DNA of 64,000 nt from the NCBI RefSeq assembly GCF_017161405.1, contig NZ_CP071051.1:620001-684000 (forward strand). Direction: 5' to 3'. Positions 4,048-61,977 of the stretch are shown one piece after another. The translations under genes were made by a program, and so were the position numbers. Within the stretch, counting starts at the first letter, position 1; every line of letters starts with the position of its first letter. Source of the DNA: Leucobacter sp. CX169. GTDB lineage: Bacteria; Actinomycetota; Actinomycetes; Actinomycetales; Microbacteriaceae. The notes below the pieces were generated by a model. The model saw only the letters and a program-made list of their open reading frames with translations, had not been told where the DNA came from and made no database searches.

Positions 4048-4059
4048 GCAGGATCCTGC
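4048..4059. repeat. GCAGGATCCTGC palindrome copy
   Basis: Perfect 12-bp palindrome, followed by CGGGCC, in the space between the divergent ROK and MsiK-type genes. One of the repeated sites discussed in the findings. Confidence 0.7.
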
Positions 4060-6695: not shown

Positions 6696-6729
6696 AAAAA
6701 GGCGGGGATCACATGATCCCCGCCTTTTT
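6696..6729. terminator. Bidirectional intrinsic terminator
   Basis: 15-bp perfect stem (AAAAAGGCGGGGATC / GATCCCCGCCTTTTT) around an ACAT loop, with U-runs in both directions. It lies between the converging M23 peptidase and pyrophosphatase genes and should end both transcripts. Confidence 0.92.
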
Positions 6730-19010: not shown

Positions 19011-20501
19011 GTGGATTTCACTTGGACGTTGCCAGCAAACACGGCGATCATCGCACTGATCATCGACCTGTCCATTCGTGTCGTCGCGCTCTTTGTGGTT
19101 CCGCGTAATCGCAAGCCGACCTCGGGCATGGCCTGGCTGCTGGCGATCTTCTTCCTCCCGGTGCCCGGCATCATCCTGTTCCTCATCATTGGGAGCAACC
19201 GTCTGCCCCGCGGGCGGGTGGCCAAGCAGGACAAGATCCATCAGCTCATCGCGGAGGTCGCCGATCGCTCTGAGCTGGCGTTTGAAGACCAGCACGTTGG
19301 CCCCGACACCGACACTGACGCGAACCCCTGGCTACACGACATCACGGTGCTGGGGCGAAACCTCGGCGCGCAGCCCATGCTCTCGGGTAACTCGGCCACC
19401 ATCAGCCGCGACTACGACGGCTCGATCGCAGACATGACCGCCGAGATTCGCGCGGCGAAGCGCTACGTCCACATCGAGTTCTACATCCTCTCCTACGACC
19501 AGGCGACCGCCGATTTCTTCGAGGCTATCCGCGAGGCGACCGCCCGCGGCGTCACCGTTCGGGTGCTGCTCGATCACATCGCGGCGGTGCGCGCGCCGGG
19601 CAACCGCAAGACCGTGCGCATGCTCAAGCAGGTCGGCGCGGAGTGGTCGTACATGCTGCCGGTGCGCCCCTGGCGCTGGCAGTACCAGCGGCCGGACCTC
19701 CGCAACCACCGCAAGATCCTGGTGGTCGACGGCAAGGTCGGCTTTATGGGCTCGCAGAACCTCGTCGACTCGACCTACAACAAGAAGTCCAACATTCGTC
19801 GCGGACTGCACTGGAAGGACCTCATGGTCCGGGTCGAGGGACCCGTGGTGCTCGGCCTCAACGCGGTGTTCGTGAGCGACTGGTACCTCGAGACCGACGA
19901 GCTCCTGAGTGAGGAGTGGGTGCTCGAGGCGGTCGAGCATTGCGACCAGAACCTGCACTGCCAGGTGCTGCCGAGCGGACCGGGCTTCTCTGACGAGAAC
20001 AACCTCCAGGTGTTCGTCTCGCTGATGTATATGGCGCGCAAGCGCGTCAGTATCACGAGCCCCTACTTCGTGCCCGAGTCGTCCATTATGAACGCGCTGC
20101 GCGCGGCGACGGCGCGCGGCGTCGAGGTCGAATTGTTCGTGTCTGAGATCGGCGACCAGCCGATGGTGTACCACGCCCAACGCTCCTACTATGAGGAGCT
20201 GTTGAAGGCGGGCGTGCGCATCTTCATGTTCAAGCCGCCGTACATTCTGCACTCGAAGCACTTCAGCATCGACGACTCGGTCGCGGTCATCGGCTCCTCC
20301 AACATGGACGAGCGCTCGTTCAGCCTGAACATGGAGATCTCGATGGTGGTCTACAGCGAGATCTTCGTCCGCGAGCTCGACGAGGTCGTGGCGTACTACC
20401 ACGAGAACTCGCGAGAGCTCACGCTGGAAGAGTGGAGCAAGCAGCCCCTGCGCTCGCAACTGCTCGACAACCTCTCTCGTCTCACTTCCGCGCTGCAGTA
20501 G
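19011..20501 (+). CDS. cls: Cardiolipin synthase
   Basis: 496-residue membrane phospholipase-D-type enzyme condensing two phosphatidylglycerols into cardiolipin. Two N-terminal helices (about residues 4-24 and 38-58) anchor it. Two HKD catalytic motifs are visible: HRKILVVDG with GFMGSQN following, and HSKHFSIDD with AVIGSSNMDERS. The GTG at 19011 follows GAAGGG. Length and two-HKD architecture fit bacterial Cls rather than the CDP-alcohol-transferase-type enzyme found in other actinobacteria. Confidence 0.93.
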   Translation: MDFTWTLPANTAIIALIIDLSIRVVALFVVPRNRKPTSGMAWLLAIFFLPVPGIILFLIIGSNRLPRGRVAKQDKIHQLIAEVADRSELAFEDQHVGPDTDTDANPWLHDITVLGRNLGAQPMLSGNSATISRDYDGSIADMTAEIRAAKRYVHIEFYILSYDQATADFFEAIREATARGVTVRVLLDHIAAVRAPGNRKTVRMLKQVGAEWSYMLPVRPWRWQYQRPDLRNHRKILVVDGKVGFMGSQNLVDSTYNKKSNIRRGLHWKDLMVRVEGPVVLGLNAVFVSDWYLETDELLSEEWVLEAVEHCDQNLHCQVLPSGPGFSDENNLQVFVSLMYMARKRVSITSPYFVPESSIMNALRAATARGVEVELFVSEIGDQPMVYHAQRSYYEELLKAGVRIFMFKPPYILHSKHFSIDDSVAVIGSSNMDERSFSLNMEISMVVYSEIFVRELDEVVAYYHENSRELTLEEWSKQPLRSQLLDNLSRLTSALQ

Positions 20502-20535: not shown

Positions 20536-20590
20536 GACCCGGCGGAAATGGCTCCTTCATAGGCCTTGAACGAGCCATCTTCGCCAGGTC
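20536..20590. repeat. 55-bp palindromic element, copy A
   Basis: Arms GACCCGGCGGAAATGGCTC and GAGCCATCTTCGCCAGGTC pair at 16 of 19 positions; the centre continues as TTCA/TGAA. It is 45/55 identical to copy B at 21665, in the same orientation. It lies between the converging cls and DUF559 genes. Confidence 0.85.
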
Positions 20591-20682
20591 GAGCGGGCCT
20601 AAGGCGGACCGCCGAGCAAAATGGGTGCAAGTGGGTGCGGGCAGAGCTCGATTCCCAAAGCCCTGGAGACGCGGACGGCAGT

Positions 20683-21564
20683 CTACCTCGGGTGGTGCAG
20701 GACATCGCTCGCAAGCAGCCGAATCACCGCGTAGCCAGCGCCGCGCGCTCGGTCGAGACGACGCAGGTCCTTCTCGTACTGGACCTTGTTCGTCCGATGC
20801 TGATCGCCGTCGAACTCAACGATGACTCGGTGTTGACGGCTCACGAGGTCAAAGCGCCCCACCCACCCCGCCGAGTCCCTGATATCGACCTGCAGCTCAA
20901 AGAATTCCTCGAGCCCGTATGCGTGGAGCATGAGTCTCGACAGGGTTTCCATCCGAGACTCGGCCCCAATGCGAGCGAAGCTCGAAGCCAACCGCAGGTT
21001 GTGTGAGCCGCGTCCGCTGTGCCGGTGCCCCGCTGTCACAACTTGTTCCAGCGTCACGGGCGTTACCACGCGCGATGCAGATCGTTCTGGCCTCACCAAG
21101 TGATCTATCGCGACGATGAGCTCGCGCGGTGAGAGTAGTGGCGCGCTCTGGTGAAGGGCGATCAGTGGGGGAGCGAGCGGGACCCCGTCGACCTCGATCA
21201 CCTGTGTGGGCTCAGTCCATTCGTGGCCCCGCACGCCCCGGGCTCTACTTCTCGTGTGTCCGGGCTGGGCGGTCACGTGCAGCACGGGCTCGATCCAGAG
21301 GGGGCAGCCGTGTAAGAGTAGCGCGGAGGTGTGGCTGACTGCCTCGCCGTGCCTGAGGCGCGGGCGAAAGCGCTGCGCCGCCTGGAGCATCACGCCTCGT
21401 CGCGTGGCCGGGGGAGGGAACTCAGCGGCGATCGATCGGGCCCCGAAGTATGGCGAGCGGAGTGAGGGGTGGCGCAGGGCGCCTCTCCTGATCCCCGCGG
21501 CATAGGCGCTCGCGACGGTGAACGCTGATGGCAGTGAGGGCAGTGGTGCGCGCGGCTGTGGCAT
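20683..21564 (-). CDS. AbiEi-like / DUF559 (Vsr-like nuclease fold) protein
   Basis: 293-residue protein. The first two thirds resemble AbiEi-type antitoxin-like proteins of actinobacteria, with the SHTSALLLHG segment and an xxGHEW region. The last third is a DUF559 domain, a PD-(D/E)XK nuclease relative of Vsr: a conserved Glu in ESRMETLSRL, the motif RFDLVSRQHRVIVEFDGDQHR, then YEKDLRRLDRARGAGYAVIR. The key Asp and Glu residues look intact. The ATG at 21564 gives the usual N-terminus; a longer frame to 21636 is possible. The gene is flanked by two copies of a 55-bp palindrome. Function is unknown; defence, repair and element-related roles are all open. Confidence 0.75.
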   Translation of the reverse strand: MPQPRAPLPSLPSAFTVASAYAAGIRRGALRHPSLRSPYFGARSIAAEFPPPATRRGVMLQAAQRFRPRLRHGEAVSHTSALLLHGCPLWIEPVLHVTAQPGHTRSRARGVRGHEWTEPTQVIEVDGVPLAPPLIALHQSAPLLSPRELIVAIDHLVRPERSASRVVTPVTLEQVVTAGHRHSGRGSHNLRLASSFARIGAESRMETLSRLMLHAYGLEEFFELQVDIRDSAGWVGRFDLVSRQHRVIVEFDGDQHRTNKVQYEKDLRRLDRARGAGYAVIRLLASDVLHHPR

Positions 21565-21664
21565 GCACCGATTCTGACTCCTGGGAGTCTCGCGGACGGG
21601 CCCTGGGTGAGAAAGTGGAGAACGGGGACCACTCACGGCCTGTGAACGGGAACCCCCTCCCGCC

Positions 21665-21719
21665 GACCCGGCGCAGATGGCTCCTTCAATGACGTCGAAC
21701 GAGCCATCTGCACCGGGTC
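21665..21719. repeat. 55-bp palindromic element, copy B
   Basis: Arms GACCCGGCGCAGATGGCTC and GAGCCATCTGCACCGGGTC pair at 18 of 19 positions. It lies in the divergent promoter region between the DUF559 and DUF1003 genes, where a terminator role makes no sense. Confidence 0.85.
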
Positions 21720-21799
21720 AAGGTCGTCGCGGGAGGGGAGGGCGACTGGGCGCTCAGCGAACTCTCGCCAGGACCGGTGCGGGAGTTTACACTCACGGT

Positions 21800-22270
21800 A
21801 TGACGAGACCGCTCGAGAACTGGCACGCCCAGCACACCGAAGAGCTCACCGCGGGCCAGCGCGCCGCGGACCGCATGCGAAACGGCATGGGCTCGTGGAC
21901 CTTCATTGCCGGGTTCGTCGCGTTCATGGTCGTGTGGGCCGTGCTGAACCTGAGTGCGAAATCTTGGGACCCGTACCCGTTCATCCTGCTGAACCTGTTC
22001 TTGAGCATGCTCGCGGGCATGCAGGGAGCGATCCTGCTCATCGCGGCGAAGCGGCAGGACGCGATCGCCGCGGCGCTCGCCCAACACGACTTCGACACGA
22101 ATACGGCGGCAAAGGCCGAGATCGAGGAGCTGATGGAGATCAACCGTCAGCAAATTGTCATGCTTCACGAACTGCGGGAGGTTCTGGGGCGACAGGACTC
22201 TCAGTCGATGGGCGCTTCACCGGATCCGGACACCACCAGCAGCTCGCCGACCTCGCAGTCGAGTGCCTGA
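21800..22270 (+). CDS. DUF1003 membrane protein
   Basis: 156-residue protein with two transmembrane helices at about residues 33-52 and 62-85, separated by the NLSAKSWDPYPFILLN signature loop typical of DUF1003. The conserved tail ILLIAAKRQD and a coiled segment follow. Function of the family is unknown. TACACT ends six bases before the ATG, a leaderless layout. The last 70 bases, encoding a Ser/Thr/Pro-rich tail, overlap the convergent Xre gene. Confidence 0.85.
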   Translation: MTRPLENWHAQHTEELTAGQRAADRMRNGMGSWTFIAGFVAFMVVWAVLNLSAKSWDPYPFILLNLFLSMLAGMQGAILLIAAKRQDAIAAALAQHDFDTNTAAKAEIEELMEINRQQIVMLHELREVLGRQDSQSMGASPDPDTTSSSPTSQSSA

Positions 22271-26412: not shown

Positions 26413-26430
26413 TCACTGCGCACTGACACG

Positions 26431-26459
26431 AACGCCCCGGCCAGTTTGGCCGGGGCGTT
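26431..26459 (+). terminator. Hairpin terminator after clpC
   Basis: 13-bp perfect stem AACGCCCCGGCCA / TGGCCGGGGCGTT with a three-base loop, 19 bases after the clpC stop. Only a short T-pair follows, so termination may be partial. Confidence 0.7.
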
Positions 26460-26470
26460 CATGCGTCACG

Positions 26471-39476: not shown

Positions 39477-39510
39477 CGTTCCTGCCCGTGCCTGCCCGGA
39501 TCCTGGTGCC

Positions 39511-39565
39511 GAGACGTCTGAATCTGCGGCATCACGTGAGCTGAAGCCGCAGATTCAGACGTCTC
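39511..39565. repeat. 55-bp palindrome with perfect 20-bp arms
   Basis: Left arm 39511-39530 (GAGACGTCTGAATCTGCGGC) and right arm 39546-39565 are perfectly complementary around a 15-base loop. It lies between converging genes and is flanked by GGATCCTG-type sites at 39498 and 39582. Confidence 0.9.
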
Positions 39566-39579
39566 GATGGAGCGGAGTC

Positions 39580-61934: not shown

Positions 61935-61977
61935 AACAACAACGCCCCGGAGCCATGTGCTCCGGGGCGTTGTTGTT
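61935..61977 (+). terminator. Very strong intrinsic terminator after tuf
   Basis: 19-bp perfect stem (AACAACAACGCCCCGGAGC and its complement) around a CATGT loop; the right arm and following bases are T-rich. It ends the str operon. Confidence 0.93.

Follow-up and report, generated by a model that had tools for sequence, protein, structure and literature searches.

Predicted DUF559 nuclease genes bracketed by cognate palindromes in actinobacteria

Across actinobacteria, genes for a small, predicted DNA-cutting enzyme (DUF559) are repeatedly bracketed by a matching pair of palindromes of about 50–70 bases, and solo copies of these palindromes are scattered through the same genome. This looks like an undescribed self-spreading DNA element that parallels REP elements but uses an unrelated enzyme. 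Recognition and cleavage of the palindromes by the enzyme are inferred. The starting point is a window of 64,000 nucleotides from Leucobacter sp. CX169 (GCF_017161405.1, contig NZ_CP071051.1, positions 620,001 to 684,000, forward strand). Genomes are denoted here by G numbers (G000 is the genome of the window) and scanned loci by L numbers.

Results

The palindrome-nuclease-palindrome unit of Leucobacter

The original prediction described two related 55-bp imperfect palindromes, 45/55 identical, on both sides of a single DUF559 gene, and this observation is confirmed. The features are listed in Table 1. Copies A and B are 45/55 identical in direct orientation. Stem mismatches are at positions 5, 10, 12, and 20 in A, and at positions 8 and 20 in B, of the first 23 nucleotides. 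All DNA folds beat all 200 shuffles (z −3.7 to −9.0). The core pattern ATGGCTC-N-GAGCCAT occurs twice in the window against 0.00 expected from shuffles. Copy A lies between convergent genes, a phospholipase-D-like gene ending at 20501 and the DUF559 gene. Copy B lies between divergent genes, the DUF559 gene and a DUF1003 gene starting at 21800, and is surrounded by an outer inverted repeat. A search of the region against Rfam gave only sub-threshold chance hits, and a BLAST search of copy B with its flanks found nothing in phages.

Table 1. Features of the window, in window coordinates
Feature	Position	Strand	Description
Palindrome copy A	20536–20590	+	55 bp, 92 bp beyond the stop codon of the nuclease gene
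Nuclease gene	20683–21564	−	AbiEi-like/Vsr-like (DUF559), 293 aa, ATG start at 21564; longest ORF from GTG 21636
Palindrome copy B	21665–21719	+	55 bp, 101 bp upstream of the ATG
Outer inverted repeat around B, left arm	21654–21663	+	10 bp, CCCCTCCCGC
Outer inverted repeat around B, right arm	21729–21738	+	10 bp, GCGGGAGGGG
Whole unit	20536–21719		1184 bp; homologous units elsewhere about 1.06–1.1 kb
Solo palindrome of a second family	39510–39566		57 bp, between convergent mqo and HAD-hydrolase genes

The only gene between the palindromes encodes a protein that matches Pfam DUF559 (E = 1e-6) and PADLOC AbiEi (E = 2e-5). Its AF2 model (pLDDT 90) was compared with solved structures by Foldseek. 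It matches the AbiEi antitoxin 6y8q, and further down the list, Vsr (1vsr, probability 0.98) and the homing endonuclease I-Bth0305I (3r3p, probability 0.91). A profile search against PDB sequences places 3r3p on the C-terminal part. In 21 homologues D263, G277, and H280 are invariant and E274 is nearly invariant. The fold and catalytic residues thus agree with a Vsr-like PD-(D/E)XK nuclease, although activity was not assayed, and the gene is apparently intact. No AbiEii toxin gene is adjacent, the neighbours being the phospholipase-D-like and DUF1003 genes. A tblastn search with the nuclease found no hits in phages and 2 weak hits in plasmids, indicating that it is not a typical phage or plasmid gene.

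The exact core occurs at three sites in the genome: A, B, and a third copy, C (G000:C1:1067221-1067275). Copy C is 0.43 Mb away, between divergent genes, with no DUF559 gene beside it. It is the only close solo copy of this exact family in the genome. A covariance model built from the three copies finds at least six further, weaker relatives of 54–55 bp in the genome, and eight in Herbiconiux gentiana (G011). One of the G011 copies lies next to a DUF559 gene of that species. The 57-bp palindrome of the window resembles the palindrome beside the second DUF559 gene of G000 (G000:C1:751277-752173), whose protein is 50% identical.

Association of palindromes with DUF559 genes

Two outcomes had been named in advance as counting against the proposal: palindromes scattered without association to DUF559 genes, and DUF559 homologues lacking flanking palindromes. 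Scans of 30 homologous loci and of 40 regions of 16–19 kb, across Microbacteriaceae, showed palindromes of about 46–66 bp close to one or both ends of most DUF559 genes. For statistics, 80 named loci from other actinobacteria were taken from an independent genome scan. At least one such palindrome lies within 250 bp in 53 of the 80 loci (41 at the 5' side, 31 at the 3' side, 19 at both), against about one per side expected from the density elsewhere. Not every homologue is flanked: the remaining 27 show none with the detector used. Palindromes of 46–78 bp are present in 53/110 gaps adjacent to DUF559 genes (48%) and in 18/324 other gaps (5.6%; Fisher p = 3e-22), although the loci are not fully independent since some are orthologues. 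Outside the family, 20/29 class-level loci, from other actinomycete orders, have them too. The protein family itself is seen in 85/118 sampled class members, and in 60 of 73 actinomycete genera sampled.

The density of palindromes alone is not evidence. In random 100-kb samples, raw palindrome density did not separate genomes with and without DUF559 (2 and 4 without, 4 and 2 with). It is the cognate sequence match that is evidence.

Cognate pairing and co-divergence

The two palindromes of one gene match each other and not those of other genes. In the 19 two-sided loci, the mean similarity score within a pair is 35.3, against 6.8 ± 5.0 between loci, and 17 of 19 have their own partner as the best match. 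Searching the opposite flank by similarity raises the two-sided cases to about 35/53, with a match above the 99% null. Paralogues in one genome (G007, G003, and G011) carry different palindromes. Palindrome similarity follows protein identity (Mantel r = 0.61, p = 0.0005), and falls near background below roughly 50% protein identity.

Dispersed solo copies

Scattered copies do exist, but they are solo copies cognate to a resident gene. With the unit of Cryobacterium algoricola as a query, the three genomes that carry this subtype (C. glucosi, C. breve, and C. algoricola) each hold at least 11 dispersed solo copies of the 61–62-bp palindrome. Nine genomes without the subtype hold essentially none. 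The counts are minima, as the scan scores a limited number of candidates. In other actinomycetes, the pattern TTGATCATGG..CCATGATCAA occurs 33 and 46 times in G111 and G154, respectively, and 8–13 times in G093, G127, and G165, with 0 in the reversed-pattern control and 0 in five genomes of other families. Both DUF559 genes of G093 are bracketed by such palindromes.

Solo copies favour convergent gene ends: 14/20 in G111 and 26/39 callable sites overall, against 23% background (p = 6e-9; a heuristic gene caller was used). Among 32 G111 copies, pairing is clearly above slid controls (87% against 33–52%), but covariation is only modestly above shuffles. Stem mismatches are about half G-T/A-C (58/114). 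Ordinary transitions explain this, and a Vsr-style mismatch hypothesis gains no special signal from it. Some solo palindromes (the G111 copies, L208, and L153:9078-9139 of Cryobacterium) mix two half-arm types, e.g., GAGTACGAAA with GAGCGGAGAAA, as if halves were exchanged at the centre.

Duplicated units and gene-less sites

G111 has two units at different loci, 90% identical over 1122 bp. The homology starts about 20 bp outside one palindrome and ends at the other, while the flanks are unrelated. The pair in G107 (84% over 988 bp) shows the same at the palindrome that is detectable. At L346 (about 2493 onward; G111:C1, 2.68 Mb), an apparent IS110-family transposase gene lies directly beyond the right palindrome of a DUF559 unit, which is truncated there, recalling REP-targeting insertion sequences.

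Unit site 2 of G111 and G093 is gene-less in the related genus G154, where the junction holds a single 58-bp palindrome of another family. The purL-SDR site, which carries units in several Cryobacterium species, is gene-less in G050 and G053, with a different long-loop inverted repeat there, and holds units with other palindrome types in other species. Palindromes at the gene-less sites belong to other families. These sites are in species of about 68–80% identity, so the direction, gain or loss, is not proven, and the comparison leaves it undecided whether gene-plus and gene-minus alleles in the sense of a homing element are represented. At gene-less purL-SDR sites of Cryobacterium (L237:1340-1440 and L238:1488-1580), a conserved long-loop inverted repeat GCATAACTCCTGCAATT...AATTGCAGGAGTTATGC is present, and is perhaps another repeat family.

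Variation of the copies, a further point raised beforehand, is seen between species. One G111 solo palindrome is absent from G093, G165, and G127. Among the three Cryobacterium species, at about 90% identity, most solo sites are shared. No target-site duplication or precise insertion footprint was seen in the alignments, but no very recent insertion was available, and whether duplications are formed is thus left undecided. At one site (L208), C. algoricola has a palindrome of another family, and at another (L214), C. glucosi has none and C. algoricola has another family.

Discussion

A probable REP-like replicator with a predicted PD-(D/E)XK nuclease

The interpretation in the original prediction, a REP-RAYT-like arrangement with a Vsr-like nuclease in place of the Y1 transposase, is supported. 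It is moderately likely that the unit is one member of a large actinobacterial class of REP-like replicators, in which each nuclease gene is bracketed by two copies of its own cognate palindrome and accompanied by dispersed solo copies. In this model, the AbiEi-like winged-helix part would recognise the cognate palindrome, as duplex or as an extruded hairpin or cruciform, and the Vsr-like domain would nick or cut it. Repair or copying would then spread solo palindromes into other intergenic sites, mostly 3' ends, and occasionally the whole unit. The analysis demonstrates the bracketing, the cognate pairing, the co-divergence, the dispersal tied to the gene, the unit-limited homology, the presence/absence differences, and an apparently intact nuclease. 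Binding, cleavage, and the role of the nuclease itself in driving the copying are deduced from these, and no biochemical evidence is at hand.

It can further be speculated, at somewhat better than even likelihood, that this is a new class of bacterial replicator, widespread in actinomycetes. A restriction-endonuclease-fold enzyme would recognise and spread its own palindromes, having independently evolved to do what RAYT transposases do for REPs, with rapid co-turnover of enzyme specificity and palindrome sequence. If so, it would give a function to a very common family of DUF559/AbiEi-like genes, explain many of the unexplained palindromes between actinobacterial genes, and show that REP-like genome-wide palindrome families arose more than once with unrelated enzymes. 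Many natural enzyme-palindrome pairs are on hand, so recognition rules can be tested directly.

Comparison with known systems

REP-RAYT systems (REPtrons, TnpA-REP; PMC3733652, PMC8266576) also have imperfect palindromes flanking an enzyme gene, cognate solo copies dispersed in intergenic DNA, and co-varying enzyme and repeat types. Their enzyme is a Y1 HUH transposase, whereas here it is AbiEi-like plus Vsr-like. The palindromes are 46–78 bp against 20–40 bp for REPs. No GTAG (or CGTC) tag is seen at the feet of A, B, or C, or of the Cryobacterium and G111 copies read. In TIRtrons (PMC3733652), the terminal repeats of an enzyme gene form a dispersed repeat family, but the enzyme is again a Y1 transposase, in contrast to a nuclease and palindromic ends. 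Freestanding homing endonucleases of the I-Bth0305I type share the Vsr-like catalytic domain and, as proposed here, a mobile nuclease gene, but lack cognate dispersed palindromes at both ends. AbiEi antitoxins of type IV toxin-antitoxin systems share the N-terminal fold, and here there is an extra nuclease domain and no AbiEii toxin gene in the unit. The Vsr mismatch endonuclease, REase_MTES_1575, and DUF559 belong to the same catalytic domain family, but no methylase partner is inside the unit. The REase_MTES_1575 domain was described as a Vsr-type REase in giant defence proteins (PMC3710099), not in this setting. No paper found in the literature searched, which did not cover subscription journals and preprints, links DUF559 or Vsr-like nucleases to palindromes. 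The system is regarded here as new in kind, although a definition as wide as REP-like palindrome systems would include it, with a different enzyme.

Alternative explanations

The main alternative, considered unlikely but possible, is homing. The nuclease might cleave sites carrying a resident or non-cognate palindrome, and gene conversion might replace it by its own palindrome or whole unit, so that the palindromes are mainly the homing target rather than independently transposing elements. I-Bth0305I is among the closest solved relatives, the same chromosomal site holds palindromes of different families in sister species (L208 and L214), a gene-less unit site holds a solo palindrome, and solo copies mix half-arm types. 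Cleavage of a gene-minus allele was not assayed. However, many intact cognate solo palindromes coexist with an apparently intact nuclease gene and would be cut unless protected, and solo copies also sit at sites with no palindrome in relatives. Less likely still, the palindromes could be operators of the AbiEi-like domain and/or bidirectional terminators, kept similar at both ends of the gene by gene conversion, without mobility. AbiEi-type antitoxins autoregulate through inverted repeats, and solo copies do favour convergent gene ends. Against this, there is no T-tract, and copies B and C lie between divergent genes. An operator regulon would favour promoters, but solo copies mostly avoid them. 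Such functions may exist as by-products, but do not explain the unit-limited homology or the lineage-specific dispersal.

It is very doubtful that a third-party enzyme, a RAYT or other transposase, spreads the palindromes with DUF559 as a passenger or beneficiary. REPs are usually paired with Y1 transposases (PMC3733652), and an IS110-like element sits in one palindrome. However, the Y1 domain (PF01797) was not found in six of seven palindrome-bearing genomes tested (G000, G007, G021, and G040–G042), with one hit in G011. A RAYT cannot be responsible in the genome of the window, because no Y1 domain is found there, and the palindrome sequence follows the DUF559 sequence. Least likely is a defence nuclease that uses dispersed palindromes as self marks or decoys. 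AbiEi and MTES_1575-like nucleases are discussed in defence contexts (PMC3710099), but no partner toxin, methylase, or helicase is inside the units, hits are absent in phages and only 2 in plasmids, and the bracketing is not explained.

Other palindromes and hairpins

A hairpin scan of the window finds five strong hairpins, two of which, B and the 57-bp palindrome, are of this class. Of the others (6696–6729, 26430–26460, and 61935–61977), the one at 6696–6729 ends in a T-run and looks like an intrinsic terminator; the other two were not examined. A short palindrome, GCAGGATCCTGC, occurs 11 times in the window with up to 1 mismatch, against 0.34 expected: at 4048, 7912, 26472, and 39581, and at seven one-mismatch sites (235, 15329, 17050, 41240, 44854, 47065, and 54956). 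The crude gene caller did not settle its positions relative to genes. It is also seen next to copy C. At L089:2064-2255, there are three tandem palindromes (TCGGGTCATATCGCGGGTTCTC type) unrelated to the nearby DUF559 palindrome.
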